From: an uncultured Akkermansia sp.
Lineage (GTDB): Bacteria; Verrucomicrobiota; Verrucomicrobiia; Verrucomicrobiales; Akkermansiaceae
Assembly: GCA_947630815.1 (NCBI GenBank)
Contig: CANRJD010000011.1
Location: 1-35,156 of the forward strand
Direction: 5' to 3'
Length of the DNA stretch: 35,156 nucleotides
In this document: one piece after another, positions 32-35,156 of the stretch
Layout of the letters: every line of letters starts with the position of its first letter
How positions within the stretch are numbered: the first letter of the stretch is position 1
Notes under the pieces: model-generated
Seen by the model: the letters and a program-made list of their open reading frames with translations, nothing else
Told to the model about the DNA's origin: nothing
Databases searched by the model: none
Translations under genes and position numbers: made by a program

Positions 32-2503
32 CTATGCATTAAATCCTGTCCCTAGGTTTTCTAATGCGTTTGCCCTGGGGTCAAGCGCAGCCTGCATCAG
101 CATTGTGCGCCCTCTTTTATCCTTTTCGTTGGGGTCGAGCTTTCCCTCCTTCGCGCCATGTTCTTTGAGGTGTTTCACGGTTTCATTCCGCCAGTAGTCA
201 TCATCGATCTCGTTGCGTGCGATTTGCAAGGCTGTCTTGCCCGCTTTATTCTTGATGTTCGGGTTCGCTCCGGCGTCCAAGAGGGCTTGAACGACGTGAT
301 AATTTTGATGTGTCACGGCCATCATGAGGGCCGTGTTGCCCTCGTTGTCCTGCGCGTTGATGCGGACGCCATGTTGCATGAGAAGACGCACTGCTTGAAG
401 CGCTGATTCAACGTCTTGGGTGTAGGAGAAGGTAAAGAGAGGTGTTCTTCCCTTGGTATCGCGTACGCGCGCATCGGCGCCGGCACGAAGGAGCTGGTCA
501 ATCAGTTCCGCTTCCTCTGCGCGGAAAAGCAAGGTTTGACCATCCTGATCGATTGGCTTGTTCACGTCAACTCCAGCTTCGAGGAAAATGGAAAACACGA
601 GGTTTCCCCAGTCCTTTACCCCCATCGCGGTTGGTGCTATGGAGAAGATGAGATTACCGTTTTCATCGACTTCGTTTGGACTCTCACCCGCTTTGAAAAA
701 CGCACGAAAAGCGCTGGTGTTGTCGAGGCTGTTGCCTTTTTCTTTTGCCCATGCCACCAGATCTGGTTTGTACCCGTGCCGTTTGAGAATTTGGATGATG
801 TCAACATAGTCCTCGCAGGGGCGGTGACTGTAGAATCCGAGGCGACCGGAAGCGGAATCCGAATCGGAGAGGAGGCGTTGGGTCATATCCTTGGGGATAC
901 GAGCGCCGAGCTTAAGCAGAGGCTCGATCTTCTCCGGGTCCACGATTTGCAGTTCACCGGGGTCGATCCCCTTTTCCTTGAGCTGCTCGACGACCTCTAC
1001 CGAGCCTTCTGCCATAGCGAGACTCATGGCTGATTTCTCTTCGCATTTCACGGTTGGATCCACCCCGGCATCCAGCAGACGCTTGGCAATCTTGCCGCCG
1101 CAAGTGCCGTTGACCATGAGGGTGGTCCACCCATCTTCCCCCTTTGCCAGGGGATCGGCGCCGGCATCGAGCAACATGAGGGCCAGCTTCTCCCGCCCGG
1201 CGGGGGACGATATCTCCGGCCTCAGTTTCCGAGCGAGGATATCCTTGGGCACGTCCGCCCCCGCCTTAATCAGCTGCTCCACCATGCGCAGGATGTCCGC
1301 TTCAGACTTTTTGCTCACGCGGTAGTTGCTTCCACCATAGAGTCGGTCTTTGAATCCACCATAGGCAGCATAATAGATAACGCCATTTCCAGCGGAATCT
1401 TTGGCATGTATATCTGCCCCTGCATCCAGCAGACGTTTCACAATCTCGGTGCGATGCGTAGAATTTTTCGTCTCGCCCGCTGAATTGGCAGCTGCCATCA
1501 GCGGGGTCAATTGATTATCTCCTGTCGCGTTGGGGTTAGCTCCGCGGGCAAGGAGGAGTTTTACATTGGTAAGGTTAACCTCGTCCGCCGCTTGGTGCAG
1601 AAGCGTTGCTTTGCCCAGCTCTCCAAGATTAACATTCCATTCCCATCCCCCCACGTGTCCAGACAATGCGTTCACGTCGGCATTGTCTTCGGCGTCAATG
1701 AGGGCAGGAGCGGCTTCTTCTTGCTTCAGCTGAGACGCGATCTTCATCTGCAGCTCGGGGTCGATGATATCCACTTTTGTTCCGAGCGCGCGGAGGAGTT
1801 GCAGCGGTTCCACTCCCACGCTGGAGAGATCCTCCGGGAGAATAAACTTCCTCGCACCGATGCGATAAAGAAGGGCGAATTTCATCGGACTTCCGGAAAA
1901 ATCGCCCATTTTCCATTCCGTATTTTTCAGTTTGCTGAGTTTCTCTGCCTTGGCTCCACGCAGCTGGAGGATTGCACCCGCTTCATCGAAGAAGTTGTCT
2001 CCCGAAAAAAAGTCTTCCTCAATTTCTCCGGGAATGACGTGTTGATAGAAACACATGTCCCGCGCTTCCTGGCGGCTCAGCGGCTGCTTTTCCTTCTCGA
2101 GCGCCGTCAAAAAATCGCTCAGGTCTCCGTGAGATAAGTCGCCGGCTGTCTTGCCGGATTTACTCTTGATGGAGGCATCTGCCCCCTTCGCCACGAGCCA
2201 GCAGACCGCAAGACGGTTGCCCCGCGCAGCGGCATGCATAAGGGCGGTCTGCCCTAGCTTGTCCACGGCGTTGATATCGCCGCCTTTTTCGATGGCTTTG
2301 AGTTTTTTGAGCAGGGAGGCGGCACGCTTCTGCTCCTTGCTGAGCTTGGCACCCTTCGCTTGCTTTCCCGTACCTGCCGGGAAGAGGAGCTCCACTCCTT
2401 GCTGCGGTACACTCCCTGACGCACTTTCCTTCGCTGACGTCGCCCCCGTGAACCAAAGGACACAGACAATGGACAGAAATATAAACCACTTAAAATAAGT
2501 CAA
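32..2503 (-). CDS. Secreted ankyrin-repeat protein (ANK1), 823 aa; TTG start in track, possible upstream ATG at 2540
   Basis: Long ORF with an N-terminal hydrophobic signal (YFKWFIFLSIVCVLWFTGATSA) and many ankyrin motifs (e.g. DKLGQTALMHAAARGNRLAVCWLVAKGAD, DNEGNTALMMAVTHQNYHVVQALLDAGANPN). Confidence 0.9.
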   Translation of the reverse strand: MTYFKWFIFLSIVCVLWFTGATSAKESASGSVPQQGVELLFPAGTGKQAKGAKLSKEQKRAASLLKKLKAIEKGGDINAVDKLGQTALMHAAARGNRLAVCWLVAKGADASIKSKSGKTAGDLSHGDLSDFLTALEKEKQPLSRQEARDMCFYQHVIPGEIEEDFFSGDNFFDEAGAILQLRGAKAEKLSKLKNTEWKMGDFSGSPMKFALLYRIGARKFILPEDLSSVGVEPLQLLRALGTKVDIIDPELQMKIASQLKQEEAAPALIDAEDNADVNALSGHVGGWEWNVNLGELGKATLLHQAADEVNLTNVKLLLARGANPNATGDNQLTPLMAAANSAGETKNSTHRTEIVKRLLDAGADIHAKDSAGNGVIYYAAYGGFKDRLYGGSNYRVSKKSEADILRMVEQLIKAGADVPKDILARKLRPEISSPAGREKLALMLLDAGADPLAKGEDGWTTLMVNGTCGGKIAKRLLDAGVDPTVKCEEKSAMSLAMAEGSVEVVEQLKEKGIDPGELQIVDPEKIEPLLKLGARIPKDMTQRLLSDSDSASGRLGFYSHRPCEDYVDIIQILKRHGYKPDLVAWAKEKGNSLDNTSAFRAFFKAGESPNEVDENGNLIFSIAPTAMGVKDWGNLVFSIFLEAGVDVNKPIDQDGQTLLFRAEEAELIDQLLRAGADARVRDTKGRTPLFTFSYTQDVESALQAVRLLMQHGVRINAQDNEGNTALMMAVTHQNYHVVQALLDAGANPNIKNKAGKTALQIARNEIDDDYWRNETVKHLKEHGAKEGKLDPNEKDKRGRTMLMQAALDPRANALENLGTGFNA

Positions 2504-2513
2504 ATAACAAATC

Positions 2514-2521
2514 GGGGGGGG
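2514..2521 (-). repeat. Homopolymer G8 (+ strand) / C8 (coding strand) between upstream ATG and ANK1 signal-peptide frame
   Basis: atc-gggggggg-tagc on + strand. Confidence 0.9.
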
Positions 2522-2681
2522 TAGCGACGATGTGTGACATAACGAATGCTGGAGTGACTAAGGAAAGTCTATCAGTTTTATCCTGCCGGAGCAAGTGAAA
2601 AAATCACAAAATGTTAAAGTTTCACATTTGCCGCACACGTGTCCCAATAAAATTTCTCCCAGGCTCATCAAACCTATTTTC

Positions 2682-18331: not shown

Positions 18332-18820
18332 TTATTTTTTCTCGGAAGCTTGCTGCTCTAGAATCCTGTGAAAGACAAAATAATCATCCTGAGCTTTTCT
18401 GATCAAGCTGAACACTTTAGCGTATTTAGGATCTGTTTCTCTTTGGCTCCCCCAATAATAACATCTTGCAGAAGGAAAAGGTATCGCGCCTTTCTCCAAC
18501 ATAAGCGCCACCATCTCTTCATCATTTAAGTAAAAAGCAATCGAAAGCGGGGTCATCGTCGAGGTGCCCACGCTTAACATATCATTCAATTCTTCCGGAT
18601 GAGACCTGATGTGCTCCATTACCTTATCTCGTGAAACTTTTTCATCTCGATAGTCCAGTAAAAGAATCAGCATTGCGCTCTTATAGTGCCGTTTAGCACC
18701 GGGTACTGAGAATTCAGGATGATTGGGGTTTCCTGGACGATAAACGCACTGACCCTCCGCATACACGGAAGGAAGAAGCAGAGACAAGCCTACAAATGCG
18801 GTCAAAATATTCTTTTTCAC
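18332..18820 (-). CDS. Small secreted 'LEKGAIPFP' family protein, copy 1 (GTG start)
   Basis: VKKNILTAFVGLSLLLPSVYAEGQ signal peptide; ...MTPLSIAFYLNDEEMVALMLEKGAIPFPSAR (degenerate ankyrin-like). Confidence 0.8.
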   Translation of the reverse strand: MKKNILTAFVGLSLLLPSVYAEGQCVYRPGNPNHPEFSVPGAKRHYKSAMLILLLDYRDEKVSRDKVMEHIRSHPEELNDMLSVGTSTMTPLSIAFYLNDEEMVALMLEKGAIPFPSARCYYWGSQRETDPKYAKVFSLIRKAQDDYFVFHRILEQQASEKK

Positions 18821-18826
18821 AGGCTT

Positions 18827-18855
18827 GTTATGCCACACTAAAAGCCTTGGGTCAA
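18827..18855 (-). promoter_or_regulatory. Promoter TTGACC-N17-CATAAC, 6 nt before GTG
   Basis: -35 complement of 18850-18855, -10 complement of 18827-18832; conserved in the second copy. Confidence 0.6.
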
Positions 18856-19174
18856 GATTTAAAAATTTTTGACACAGCGGCGGGAGGTATGTCCTCCCGA
18901 AAGAAAGTCTCTGCCCTTGAATCCCGCTTCGCCCCGCTTTGGGATGCCCTCGGAGTCGCAACCGGACAAAAGTAGCGTACACACCATGTGTTGCAAGCAC
19001 GTCATTATGCTGGCAGAAAAGCGCAAGAAGAAACGTAAGGGAGAGGAGCGCCAAGGAAGTTGAAAAGAGGGGGATGTGAAATTGGTTCGGTAGTTATGGG
19101 GCTGTCCAACTATAGTCGGCGGTGTGAGAGGGGGGCGAAAGCCCCCTACTCGATAACCAGATGCACGTATAATT

Positions 19175-19783
19175 TCAGTTCTCGCTCTTGAGAATCATTT
19201 TGTTCAATTCATACTTTTGCTGTGCCCTGTGTATCATATCTATGATTTCCGGCTTTATTTCACCGCCGTAAATACATGAAACCATGTCTATGATATCTGT
19301 TCCTCTCTCATACGGGAAAGGAATAGCTCCTTTATCCAGCATAGCTTTAGCTAATTCAACATTAATCTTTGATATCACAACCATCAGGACTGTCATAGCA
19401 ATCCCATCATGGAAGCAGACATCATTAACTTCCTCGGGATGTTCTTCTATTGCCTTTAACATCCTTGCCGGAAATTCCTTTGCATCATCCTCACATTTGA
19501 CGCTGTTAATAACTTCAAAGAGGTGACTACGGTACTTGAGTTCAATTGCTTTTTTGCTATCCATAAAAGCAGGGTGTTTTGGATCTCCCGGCACTTCAAG
19601 TGAATCGGCATAAACGAAACTTACCGTTATGACCTTTTTAGGAGAAAGATCTTCTATTTTTTGCTTTATAGGTATGTATCCATCCGGGAAAAATATAACT
19701 GTCCCGTCTGTATAGGTTACAGCATCTTTGGCAAGACCATAATATAAAAGGTCTCTAAGACCTTTTAACTGCACTGTGCCCAA
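19175..19783 (-). CDS. Diverged 'LEKGAIPFP' family paralog
   Basis: EEHPEEVNDVCFHDGIAMTVLMVVISKINVELAKAMLDKGAIPFPYERG aligns with the flanking copies. Confidence 0.7.
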   Translation of the reverse strand: MGTVQLKGLRDLLYYGLAKDAVTYTDGTVIFFPDGYIPIKQKIEDLSPKKVITVSFVYADSLEVPGDPKHPAFMDSKKAIELKYRSHLFEVINSVKCEDDAKEFPARMLKAIEEHPEEVNDVCFHDGIAMTVLMVVISKINVELAKAMLDKGAIPFPYERGTDIIDMVSCIYGGEIKPEIIDMIHRAQQKYELNKMILKSEN

Positions 19784-19799
19784 CGGTAAAAACTCTTTT

Positions 19800-20195
19800 T
19801 TATGCTGCTAAGTTTGTAAATATGGAGATCATACACGGGCTTTGAATTCCAATAATCTTCCATAATAAAAATAATTGCCCATCATTCGTCGTCCACCACC
19901 ATTTGGCGAAAGCGTACCAGCAAGCTTCTCGCCATAACGTTGGCAGATCATTAAACGGAATCGCTTTTCCCGTTCCCCATAGTTCAGGCTCTCTTTCATC
20001 TCCCCATATTCTATTATTGATCACCTCATCTCTTGTTCTAGGCGTGCCTTCCATTACTTTGCGTATGTCGCATGCGGCACGGGAACTTGAACCAAATACC
20101 GATGAAACATTTTCAGGAGACAATTCTTTATGATTGGAAACTATGGGGGGCTCCGCCTGCAACATTTGAACGAAGGGGACTACTATTAGTGGCAA
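19800..20195 (-). CDS. Hypothetical protein, possibly a degenerate paralog
   Basis: 131 aa ORF; LPTLWREACWYAFAKWWWTTNDGQLFLLW weakly resembles LRDLLYYGLAKDAVTYTDGTVIFFP of the adjacent gene. Confidence 0.4.
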   Translation of the reverse strand: MPLIVVPFVQMLQAEPPIVSNHKELSPENVSSVFGSSSRAACDIRKVMEGTPRTRDEVINNRIWGDEREPELWGTGKAIPFNDLPTLWREACWYAFAKWWWTTNDGQLFLLWKIIGIQSPCMISIFTNLAA

Positions 20196-20230
20196 AATGA
20201 TTTTTTCATGTCTGAATGAGGGCTTTGTAT

Positions 20231-20891
20231 AAACTGGTGCCCATTTTTCGACACCTTGGAAGTATCAAGACCATGACATTATGTCATGACCTTATTTTTT
20301 CTCGGAAGCTTGCTGCTCTAGAATCCTGTGAAAGACAAAATAATTATCCTGAGCTTTTCTGATCAAGCTAAACACTTTAGCGTATTTAGGATCTGTTTCT
20401 CTTTTGGCCCCCCAATAATAACTTCTTGCAGAAGGAAAAGGTATCGCGCCTTTCTCCAACATAAGCGCCACCATTTCTTCATCATTCAAGTAAAAAGCAA
20501 TCGAAAGCGGGGTCATCGTCGAGACGTGCGCGCTTAACATATCATTCAATTCTTCCGGATGAGACCTGATGTGCTCCATTACCTTATCTCGTGAAACTTT
20601 TTCATCTCGATAGTCCAGTAAAAGAATCAGCATTGCGCTCTTATAGTGCCGTTTAGCACCGGGTACTGAGAATTCAGGATGATTGGGGTTTCCTGGACGA
20701 TAAACGCACTGACCCTCCGCATACACGGAAGGAAGAAGCAGAGACAAGCCTACAAATGCGGTCAAAATATTCTTTTTCACAGGCTCGTTATGCCACACTA
20801 AAAGCCTTGGGTCAAGATTTAAAAAATTTTTTGACACAGCGGCGGGAGGTGTGTCCTCCCGAACCCCGAAAGAAAGCCTCTGCCTTGAAGA
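20231..20891 (-). repeat. Direct repeat copy 2 (~650 bp)
   Basis: aaactggtgcccatttttcgacac...gtcctcccgaa...gaaagcctctgcc; matches 18271..18918. Confidence 0.9.
20292..20780 (-). CDS. Small secreted 'LEKGAIPFP' family protein, copy 2 (GTG start)
   Basis: Near-identical to copy 1; differences include SVGTST/SAHVST and CYYWGSQ/SYYWGAK. Confidence 0.8.
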   Translation of the reverse strand: MKKNILTAFVGLSLLLPSVYAEGQCVYRPGNPNHPEFSVPGAKRHYKSAMLILLLDYRDEKVSRDKVMEHIRSHPEELNDMLSAHVSTMTPLSIAFYLNDEEMVALMLEKGAIPFPSARSYYWGAKRETDPKYAKVFSLIRKAQDNYFVFHRILEQQASEKK

Positions 20892-21074
20892 GCGGTTTCG
20901 CCCCCCTCCATGCCCGCAGCAAGCGCAGGAAGCACATTCTTGCACATCGTGAGCGAGCCCGTGAAGTAGCCCCTCTCAACCTCTCCCGCCAGTTCACCGC
21001 ATCCCAACGAAGCATGCAAAGTGCCCTGTCAGGCACTTGCGAACGTTAAAAACTCTACAAATCACAAAATGTAG

Positions 21075-21232: not shown

Positions 21233-23569
21233 TCATGTTTTAACGCCCCAATTAACCGTGCCCGCTTTGTTCTTGATGTTCGGATTCGCTCCGGAGTCTA
21301 AAAGAGCTTGAACGCCTGTAGTCTCGCCCATCATCACGGCCATCATGAGAGCGGTGTTGCCTTCGTTGTCTTGCGTGTTGATGCGGATACCTCGTTGCAT
21401 GAGAAGACGCACCATTTCGGATCTGTCTCCATAAAAGCTGCAAAAAAAGAGAGGCGTTCTTCCCTTGGCGTCGCGCACGCGAGCGTCGGCGCCGGCACGA
21501 AGAAGCTGGGCAATCAGTTTCGCATTACCTGCGTAGAAAAGCGGGGTTTGACCATCTTGGTTGATCGGCTTGTTCACGTCAACTCCTGCTTCAATAAAGT
21601 CAGGCATCACTTGATCAATGCGCCGCATGGATTCAGAAAAGAGCATGATAGAGGAGTCGCAGATTTTATCAGGCACCTCAGCTTGTACAATGTTGGCGAG
21701 GAGAGAGTTGCCGTCCCCATCCGTTTCATTCGGATCCTCGCCTGCTTTGAAAAATGCACGAAGGACTGCCATGTTGAATTTCTCGAATAACGGGCTTTCG
21801 CGGTCCTTTCCCCATGACGCCAGCTCCGGTTTGTACCCGTGCTGTTTGAGAATTTGGATGATATCAACGTAGTCCGCGCAGAGTCTAGCGGGAGCCTTTC
21901 CACCATAACGTACATTCGTAAAATCAGACATGAGACGGTAGGTCATATCCTTGGAGATGCGGGCGCCGATCTTGAGCAATGGCTCGATCTTCTCCGGATC
22001 TACGACCCAAAGTTCGCCGGGGTCAATTCCCTTTTCCTTGAGCAGCTTTACGACCTCTACTGCGCCTTCTGCCATAGCGCGATTCATGGCGCTAGGTTCT
22101 TCACTAACCCACCTATCTGTGCTGATTCTCCAGCTGGTTTTCTCGAGCTTTACGCACGGATCCACTCCGGCATCCAACAGACGCTTGGCGATCTTGCTGC
22201 CCCAAACGCCGTTGGCCATGAGAGAGGTCCACCCATCTTCCCTCTTTGCTAGAGGATCGGCGCCGGCATCGAGCAGCATGAGAGCCAGCTTTTCACGCCC
22301 GGCAGGGGATATCTCTGGTCTCAGTTCCTGAGTGAGGATGTCTTTGGGCACATCCGCCCCCGCCTTGATCAGTAGCTCCACCATACTTAGGATGTCCGCT
22401 TCGGCCCTTTTACTCACGCGGTAAAACGTCGAATTTTCCCGATACACATCTCCACATCCTCCGCAAGCAGTGTAATAAATGACGCCTTTTCCTGCGGAAT
22501 CTTTGGCATGTATATCAGCCCCGGCATCCAGCAGTCGTTTCACAATCTCAGTTCGATGTGCAGCTTTTTCCGCCTCCCGCGTTGCGGAATTGGCAGCTGC
22601 CATCAGCGGGGTCATTTGATCATTTCCTTTCGCGTTGGGGTTAGCTCCGTGAGCAAGGAGCTGTTGCACATCGGGGAGGTTCACTCGACTCGCTGCTTGA
22701 TGAAGAAACAGTGATGTGTTCACATCCGCCTTGGCTCCGGCGTCAATGAGAGTGAGAACAAAGTTTGCGCCTTTGTTGGAATACTCCTCCAATGTTTTAT
22801 TCGGATCCTGGAGCGTTGCACCCGCTTTGAGGAGCGCTTTCAGCATTGCCCCGTCGCCCTTTTCGATGACCGCTTCCACGAGCTTTTCGTTCTTGGCGTC
22901 TAGTCCGGTGTTCAGGAGAGCTTGCAGCGTTTTCGCATCGGAGATGGAGGAGAATATTTCCGGATTTTGGAGCAGGGGAGGATCTTTTTTCAGCTGTTCA
23001 AGAGCGGTTTCTTTTTGCTTCAGTTGAAGCGCAATCTTCATCTGAAGCACGGGATCGACAATGTCCACTTTCACCCCGAGCGCACGGAGGAGCTGAAGCG
23101 GTTGCACGTTCGCCACACTGGAGAGGTCCCCCGGGAGAATGAACTTCCTCGCACCGATACGATAAAGCAGAGCGAGTTCCATCGGACTTCCGGAAAAAGA
23201 ATCCATTTTCCATTCCATATTTTTCAGTTTACTGAACTCCTCTGCCTTTGCCCCACGCAGCAGAAGGATCTCATCCGCTTCCTCGAGGTAGTCTTCCGAA
23301 GAAAAAAAGTCTTCCTCAATTTCAATTTCGCCCGGAACTTCGCCTTGATACGCGTACATATCCCGCGCCTCTTGGCGACTCAGCGGCTGCTTTTCCCTCT
23401 CGAGTGCCGTCAGAAAATCGCTCAGGTCCCCGTGAGATAGGTCGCCGGCTGTTTTGCCGGATTTGCTCTTGATGGAGGCATCCGCCCCCTTTGCCACGAG
23501 CCAGCAGACCGCAAGACGGTTGCCCCGTGCAGCGGCATACATGAGCGCAGTCTGCCCGAGCTTGTCCAC
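21233..23569 (-). CDS. Secreted ankyrin-repeat protein (ANK2), paralog of ANK1; open frame extends to 23788 and beyond without ATG/GTG/TTG
   Basis: 778 aa from GTG 23569. In-frame upstream translation LAYFKRFIVSFAACVICFTGTASASVPQRGVELLFPAGTGKQAKG... has no stop and includes a signal peptide homologous to ANK1. Confidence 0.85.
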   Translation of the reverse strand: MDKLGQTALMYAAARGNRLAVCWLVAKGADASIKSKSGKTAGDLSHGDLSDFLTALEREKQPLSRQEARDMYAYQGEVPGEIEIEEDFFSSEDYLEEADEILLLRGAKAEEFSKLKNMEWKMDSFSGSPMELALLYRIGARKFILPGDLSSVANVQPLQLLRALGVKVDIVDPVLQMKIALQLKQKETALEQLKKDPPLLQNPEIFSSISDAKTLQALLNTGLDAKNEKLVEAVIEKGDGAMLKALLKAGATLQDPNKTLEEYSNKGANFVLTLIDAGAKADVNTSLFLHQAASRVNLPDVQQLLAHGANPNAKGNDQMTPLMAAANSATREAEKAAHRTEIVKRLLDAGADIHAKDSAGKGVIYYTACGGCGDVYRENSTFYRVSKRAEADILSMVELLIKAGADVPKDILTQELRPEISPAGREKLALMLLDAGADPLAKREDGWTSLMANGVWGSKIAKRLLDAGVDPCVKLEKTSWRISTDRWVSEEPSAMNRAMAEGAVEVVKLLKEKGIDPGELWVVDPEKIEPLLKIGARISKDMTYRLMSDFTNVRYGGKAPARLCADYVDIIQILKQHGYKPELASWGKDRESPLFEKFNMAVLRAFFKAGEDPNETDGDGNSLLANIVQAEVPDKICDSSIMLFSESMRRIDQVMPDFIEAGVDVNKPINQDGQTPLFYAGNAKLIAQLLRAGADARVRDAKGRTPLFFCSFYGDRSEMVRLLMQRGIRINTQDNEGNTALMMAVMMGETTGVQALLDSGANPNIKNKAGTVNWGVKT

Positions 23570-23799
23570 GGCGTTGATATCGCCGCCTTTTTCGATGGCT
23601 TTTAGCTTTTTGAGCAGGGAGGCGGCGTGCTTCTGCTCCTTGCTGAGCTTGGCACCCTTCGCTTGCTTTCCCGTGCCCGCCGGGAAGAGGAGCTCTACTC
23701 CTCGCTGCGGTACGCTCGCTGATGCCGTCCCTGTGAAGCAAATGACACAGGCTGCGAATGAAACTATAAAGCGCTTAAAGTAAGCTAAATAACAAATTC

Positions 23800-23807
23800 G
23801 GGGGGGG
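23800..23807 (-). repeat. Homopolymer G8 (+) / C8 (coding) between upstream ATG (23826) and ANK2 signal-peptide frame
   Basis: aaattc-gggggggg-tagcgg. Confidence 0.9.
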
Positions 23808-24155
23808 TAGCGGCGGCGTATGTCATAACGAATTGTATAAAATCCACAGACAGCTTAACATTTTTTCCACTTTAGCACAAGAGCAAAAGAAAATAAAAAT
23901 GCTCCAGCCACACCCGTCTCATGAAAAGAGCGATCCCAACACGCGGTTATCGGTGCGTAATGTAGCATAATTTGTTCATAATTTAAGATTTACGATTTCA
24001 ATGCTAGCATGCTACGCGTGTTCCTGCGAAACAAAAGCAAAGCGGAATTTTCGAAAATGATGATGCGTTGATAGAAGGAAAGCATCTGCTGTTACGCTAT
24101 GCCGGGTTCACTGCTATGCCGAATCGTCAATGGTTTGACATCGTACGTCGTACAT

Positions 24156-30664: not shown

Positions 30665-30707
30665 GCGGGTATCTCTCGTTTTTTTGACTCAGGCTGGCAG
30701 GGGGGGG

Positions 30708-31124
30708 CTACTCGGGTTGAGTGCCAATGCAATGATGCCAAGCTTGAGGAATCCGGCAGGGACGTCCTTGGGGAGCCTGAACGAGCGCGAGACGCTGGCG
30801 GACCGTGACGCAGAGCTTATCATCCTCCGCGCGGCGAATCTCAAATGTAAAGTAAATGGAGGACTTTTCCACACTCTCAATGCCTCCCAGCACCCTCATC
30901 TCATCTGCCACGAAAGCGGGAGAGTGGTAGTGCACCTCATGACTCACAAGCACGCAATGCTTGTTCTCTTCCTTGGCTAAGCGAGCCCAATCGATGCCGA
31001 TGGCGGAGGACATTTTAGTACGGCATTCTTCCACCCAACGCAGGTAGGCCAAGTTGTGCACCACGCCTCCGCAATCGGTATCGTAGTACATCACTTGATA
31101 GGGGAGTACGAACAGAGCATTCAT
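30708..31124 (-). CDS. YbgC/4HBT-type acyl-CoA thioesterase
   Basis: VMYYDTDCGGVVHNLAYLRWVEECRT hotdog thioesterase motif; GRPCRIP tail. Confidence 0.88.
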   Translation of the reverse strand: MNALFVLPYQVMYYDTDCGGVVHNLAYLRWVEECRTKMSSAIGIDWARLAKEENKHCVLVSHEVHYHSPAFVADEMRVLGGIESVEKSSIYFTFEIRRAEDDKLCVTVRQRLALVQAPQGRPCRIPQAWHHCIGTQPE

Positions 31125-31143
31125 CGTGCGGGGAGAGAAAAGA

Positions 31144-31178
31144 GAAGCAGGGGAAAGCCACACGCTCTCCCCTGCTTC
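31144..31178 (-). terminator. Hairpin terminator downstream of the aminotransferase gene
   Basis: GAAGCAGGGGAAAGC...GCTCTCCCCTGCTTC; moderately T-rich on the minus strand (tctcttttctc). Confidence 0.65.
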
Positions 31179-34791: not shown

Positions 34792-34816
34792 GATAGACTT
34801 CACGCCCCCCCCAGGG

Positions 34817-35156
34817 CAACCGCATTGGAAAATGCGGTTGCCTATGTACGATTTACGATTTACGATGTACGATTTATTAATAATGTGCGCGTTGCGCAGA
34901 TTTTTTTTGGATTATTAACGTATGTCGAGGGCTCTCTAGGGGCATCATCATGATGACCGCTAGACCAACCGCATTAGAAAATGCGGTTGCCTATGTACGA
35001 TTTACGATGTACGATGTACGATTTATTAAGAGTGTGCGCGTTGCGCGGATTTTTTTTGGATTATTAACGTATGTTGAGAGCTCTCTAGGGGCATCATCAT
35101 GATGACCGCTAGACCAACCGCATTAGAAAATGCGGTTGCCTATGTACGATTTACGA
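34817..35156 (+). repeat. Tandem array of a 149-bp unit (2.3 copies, runs off the window)
   Basis: caaccgcatt recurs at 34817, 34966 and 35115 (period exactly 149). Each unit has the hairpin, TACGAT-type tail, gcgcgttgcgc and tcatcatgatga palindrome. Confidence 0.93.

Follow-up and report, generated by a model that had tools for sequence, protein, structure and literature searches.

A poly-C signal-peptide leader as a putative on/off switch of ankyrin and other exported proteins in uncultured rabbit-gut Akkermansia

The window, by which we mean the whole stretch of 35,156 nucleotides that was analysed from an uncultured Akkermansia sp., contains two paralogous ankyrin genes on its minus strand, here called ANK1 and ANK2. 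Each is preceded by a short leader in which a start codon is separated from the signal peptide by a tract of eight cytosines. The features of both loci are as follows.

2566..2573, minus strand: promoter-like box of the extended -10 type, GATAGACT, about 26 nt upstream of the ANK1 ATG, recognised from sequence only
2538..2540, minus strand: leader ATG of ANK1, first base at 2540, 19 nt upstream of the C8 tract
2514..2521, minus strand: C8 tract, frame switch of ANK1 (eight Gs on the plus strand), OFF as assembled and ON at 7 or 10
2432..2513, minus strand: remaining ANK1 leader and signal peptide (ICYLTYFKWFIFLSIVCVLWFTGATSA), from translation, with the cleavage site placed by eye
32..2503, minus strand: ANK1 body of 823 aa with ankyrin repeats (Pfam Ank_2, E 4.5e-45)
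23824..23826, minus strand: leader ATG of ANK2, first base at 23826, 19 nt upstream of the tract
23800..23807, minus strand: C8 tract of ANK2, OFF as assembled and ON at 9 or 6
21233..23799, minus strand: ANK2 body and signal peptide, without an in-frame ATG, GTG or TTG close to the tract

On the coding strand the ANK1 leader runs ATG (2540) TCA CAC ATC GTC GCT A, followed by the eight Cs and then by GATTTGTTATTTGAC... Translation from this ATG with 8 Cs yields the 16-residue peptide MSHIVATPPDLLFDLF and then a stop. With 7 Cs it yields MSHIVATPPICYLTYFKWFIFLSIVCVLWFTGATSA..., in which the ATG is joined to the signal peptide of the 823-aa ankyrin protein, and with 10 Cs the same product carries one extra P. 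The initial annotation had proposed this reading, and its poly-C(8), which lies at exactly 2514-2521, its ATG at 2540 and its stop at 8 Cs against a signal peptide at 7 or 10 Cs were all recovered from the sequence and its translation. The protein passes the Pfam ankyrin test by a wide margin (PF12796, 152.6 bits against a gathering score of 27.3), and the GATAGACT-type box is inferred to act as a promoter. A bare run of eight Cs was rejected as evidence, since the window holds four such runs against 0.99 expected, and four or more were reached in 7 of 100 shuffles. The weight of evidence lies instead in the position of the tract, and this placement recurs at ANK2 and in some 70 relatives.

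Some further repeats were recorded in passing. A C8 run on the minus strand (30700-30707) comes straight after the TAG codon that ends a thioesterase-like ORF (30708-31163) and thus cannot alter its reading frame, and another within 34805-35156 adjoins long intergenic repeats (AACCGCATTRGAAAATGCGGTTGCCTATGTACGATTTACGA) that also occur near other genes of the genome (e.g., L015). A small-protein region is duplicated within 18332-20945, where two "EGQCVYRPGNPNHPEFSVPGAKRHYKSAMLILLLDYRDEKVSRDK" ORFs, one at 18332-19054 and one at 20292-20945, are nearly identical. L018 (G000 C58:6511) and L017 (C10:3517) have the longest C runs seen in the genome, C12 and C11, and neither belongs to the leader family.

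The initial annotation saw a single gene, whereas comparison of sequences indicates that ANK1 belongs to a large repertoire, of which ANK2 is also part. At least seven genes with the common leader are found in the 2.09-Mb genome of the window, from which only the stretches around tracts and ankyrin genes were taken for analysis. The further copies in this genome are listed below.

C13: leader with C9, needs 10 or 7
C32:15857: leader with C9, needs 10 or 7
C35: leader with C8, needs 9 or 6
C66: leader with C7, needs 8, before a Sel1-like protein
C100: leader with C9, in frame and therefore ON
C32:11939: close paralogue without a tract, in frame from its ATG

The set was extended to 70 leader genes drawn from some twelve Akkermansia genomes, of which the majority are rabbit-gut MAGs, the host being inferred from the isolate name "Lapin". 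Their layout consists of a promoter-like box, an ATG, 16, 19 or 22 nt, a poly-C tract of 6-11, TTTGTTATTA, and a signal peptide. A genome scan places the family in uncultured rabbit-gut MAGs: 11 of the 76 Akkermansia genomes have 4-15 ankyrin matches each. The DNA pattern C6-N(1-12)-TTGTTATT is frequent in the same 11 and almost absent from the others, and the control with a reversed pattern came out near zero; in one further genome (G065) the leader is present on a beta-barrel gene. The anatomy is well conserved: the ATG stands 16 to 22 nt before the tract in 68 of 70 leaders, at a distance equal to 1 mod 3 in 65 of 69, TA directly precedes the tract in 63 of 70, and a pattern search found a box like GATAGACT or GGTAGATT upstream of the ATG in 60 of 69, mostly 32-40 nt away. 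The family also shares the motif xLLLxxxKRF, after which come a hydrophobic stretch and a small-residue cleavage site. The leader fits the layout of an SSR contingency locus, in which the frame depends on the length of a repeat placed between the start codon and the body, and that of an Opa-type switch, in which the repeat lies within the signal-peptide coding sequence of an exported multigene family. A phage or prophage leader was rejected, as none of the seven matches in viral_contigs had the leader followed by a long ORF and they were judged to be chance.

Tract length varies over the family (C6 once, C7 in eight copies, C8 in 33, C9 in 21, C10 in five, and C11 once), and of the 14 closest ungapped pairs, whose flank divergence reaches up to 12.4% over 97-140 nt, 11 have tracts of unequal length. 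The flanks of these pairs differ by substitutions only. In the clearest case, L098 and L101 have C11 and C8 with 97 of 97 flanking bases identical, and the C8 of ANK1 (OFF) faces C6 (ON) and C7 (OFF) in its close relatives in the sister genome. The tract thus changes faster than its flanks, between species or loci and not within a clone; lengths were taken from one genome per species, and all rabbit assemblies are MAG consensus, without read- or strain-level data for this species. The earlier proposal that ANK1 is phase variable gains support from this comparison, through the fast tract, the stable flanks and the ON and OFF sister copies, while switching within a population and expression have not been shown. 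Lost mismatch repair was rejected as a driver of slippage, since mutS and mutL are both present (mutL runs off a contig); their presence counts against the model, as slippage should then be restrained.

MAG data and a majority of OFF copies might also suggest homopolymer errors of assembly or decaying pseudogenes. Neither would account for the same layout at 6-11 Cs in independent MAGs, for flanks of about 100-140 nt without length changes in the closest pairs, or for bodies of up to about 850 codons that stay open with pairwise dN/dS of 0.17-0.54, pairs with both copies OFF included, and we give this explanation next to no credence. Purifying selection thus maintains long, unbroken frames in OFF copies. 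The same fact could be taken to favour transcriptional slippage or ribosomal frameshifting on the poly-C, which would give a fixed in-frame share at any tract length, for slippage can be promoted by poly-C and most copies are selected while out of frame. A programmed signal would favour one class of shift, but the needed shifts among 69 copies are mixed: 34 need one C less, 26 need one C more, and nine need none and are ON. Programmed frameshifting was rejected on this ground, and we regard the frameshifting explanation as a whole as very improbable. With nine copies ON, the share falls short of the one third that chance alone would give (binomial 1e-4, though the copies are related).

The start codon is the more delicate point. 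In 52 of 60 OFF copies, ANK1 included, an in-frame start, mostly TTG, lies just after the tract, and leaky expression from it is possible in many of them. For ANK1 this is the TTG at 2503 pointed out in the initial annotation, which is in frame with the 823-aa ORF, and leaky starting there is not excluded. It could be argued that translation normally begins at this TTG, that the tract and the ATG are incidental or amount to a short leader ORF, and that the gene is constitutive; TTG TTA TTA is in frame after the tract in most copies, and a protein begun there would still carry the signal peptide. Yet eight OFF copies with long open frames, among them ANK2, C13 and L094, have no in-frame ATG, GTG or TTG between 60 nt before and 45 nt after the tract end, so that no start except the leader ATG, with the tract at a different length, gives access to their conserved signal peptide. 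Moreover, an extra T in the ANK1 lineage puts the usual TTG out of frame with the ORFs still intact, poly-C and no Shine-Dalgarno sequence precedes the TTG, and the conserved ATG and long tract would be left unexplained. A constitutive TTG start is therefore unlikely in our judgment. Use of the upstream ATG, which had been no more than an inference from ANK1, is favoured by the conserved order of ATG, tract and signal peptide and by three tract-less copies (L141, L143 and C32:11939) that are in frame from the ATG. L105 and L106, with short or interrupted tracts, are out of frame and count against the model. The codons from ATG to tract vary at second as well as third positions and show no clear protein-level selection, and codon-position evidence for their translation was not used.

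The leader is not confined to one kind of protein. It precedes two ankyrin families as well as the following genes.

L211 (ON), L226 (ON), L217 (OFF) and C66 (OFF): Sel1-like proteins
L220: Sel1/TPR-like protein, not scanned against Pfam
L212, L215, L218, L224, L228, L242 and L244: outer-membrane beta-barrel subfamily (OMP_b-brl)

Distant relatives of this barrel, as far as their starts were readable, have plain MKKT-type signal peptides without the leader. Judged from these comparisons, the leader is a shared element over different exported proteins and not one gene family. Similarity upstream and downstream of the tract is hardly correlated among copies (r = 0.17). C100 and L138 are 94-98% identical over 1.2 kb up to the tract and about 50% thereafter, with bodies of which one belongs to ankyrin family 2 and the other to family 1, and the pairs C32b/L223, L127/L223 and L138/L221 show the same pattern. 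Conversely, L104 and L107 show no relationship upstream (about 47%) but agree at 98-100% of positions downstream. The simplest reading of these alignments is recombination through the short conserved junction at the tract, by which bodies are exchanged beneath resident promoters. That the leader serves both as switch and as splice point, with bodies exchanged at the poly-C/TTTGTTATTA junction, remains tentative, and we would give it somewhat less than even odds. If it is true, a locus varies both its expression and which exported protein it expresses, and a gut commensal would then possess a system that combines on/off switching with antigenic variation.

Taking the evidence together, we propose with a probability of about 0.83 that ANK1 encodes a secreted ankyrin-repeat protein under phase variation and belongs to a bank of genes that switch independently of one another. 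What is observed is the layout, its conservation, the differing tract lengths of close relatives and purifying selection on OFF bodies; slippage inside a population is inferred, as are the start site, expression and the role. Transcription would start just upstream of the leader, and the ribosome would initiate at ATG 2540 and cross the poly-C tract within the signal peptide's extended n-region. The frame would be shifted by slipped-strand mispairing at the Cs, with 7 or 10 of them giving the full secreted protein and 8 or 9 an abortive peptide of 16 codons or shorter. The genes of this bank encode different exported proteins and are mostly OFF in the assembled consensus, and the bank may serve to limit how many variants phage, host or competitors meet at any one time.

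Poly-G tracts following ATGCAAGAC...CAACATATAG gate two further genes and represent a second switch type.

G000 C109:2723 (L075/L284): AT3-SGNH (acyltransferase-3/SGNH) protein MQYIYSQHIVRGG..., G8, ON at 7 or 10; its counterpart in the sister genome (L269) has G9
G000 C4:14320 (L025/L271; L270 in the sister genome): G9, ON at 8 or 11; Mrr/ResIII restriction enzyme (Mrr_cat_2 and ResIII; PADLOC REase_MTase_IIG) resembling type IIG/ISP

A shortened relative of the latter restriction-helicase gene lies at C16:10450. The sequence ATCGTCGCTA adjoins the tracts of both ANK1 and the opposite-facing acyltransferase gene, a hint of inversion that consists of only 10 bases. No inverton motif was found in the window, where a single weak inverted pair (16 nt, 81% match) lies near ANK1, and an invertible promoter was rejected in the absence of inverted repeats flanking the promoter.

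Switching by slippage is familiar from mucosal pathogens. In Neisseria, a CTCTT repeat in the signal-peptide coding sequence switches the Opa genes (PMC4534519), which resemble the present family as multi-copy, complete genes independently turned on and off through signal-peptide-region repeats, with bodies that recombine and clones that express none, one or two (PMC4534519). The Opa repeat differs in being a pentamer on one beta-barrel family, whereas the Akkermansia leader has a mononucleotide C tract on ankyrin, Sel1-like and beta-barrel proteins and does not meet the Opa membership criterion of a CTCTT pentamer on Opa beta-barrels. To our knowledge there is no homology between the two. By analogy, the leader switch may work like Opa without being a member of that family. 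Within the genus, Amuc_1413 of A. muciniphila MucT shows slippage from G9 to G10 with the variant in 87-91% of reads, which suggests a dynamic mixture (PMC13055324). It shares a mononucleotide G/C tract of 8-10 and a frameshift to an early stop, but it is a lone gene of EPS biosynthesis whose tract lies at codon 55, without a common leader or multigene family, and is not a signal-peptide switch (PMC13055324). The cps1 capsule inverton reported in 2026 likewise varies a surface trait, by DNA inversion at inverted repeats and not by tract slippage (PMC13343947). The A. muciniphila genome paper of 2011 listed homopolymeric tracts in 17 genes, including the acyltransferase Amuc_2098 with C10 (PMC3048395); these long G/C tracts near gene ends were proposed as slippage switches, and an acyltransferase with a G tract occurs here too, but the ankyrin leader family is not described and the word "ankyrin" is absent from that paper. 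In the open-access literature we found no paper describing ankyrin phase variation or this poly-C leader.

Ordinary gene calling will misplace the starts or drop the signal peptides of leader genes. The exact sites given here allow tract length to be counted in existing rabbit-gut reads, and the question of the driver, whether phage, immunity or competition, is thus directly testable. In the literature found, phase variation in Akkermansia has so far involved only single genes and one capsule inverton. That ankyrin, Sel1-like and outer-membrane proteins have a poly-C signal-peptide leader in common, and that most of them are OFF, argues for strong selection on exported-protein diversity in a commensal, and these rabbit-gut Akkermansia species appear to carry an on/off gene bank like the surface-protein switches of pathogens.
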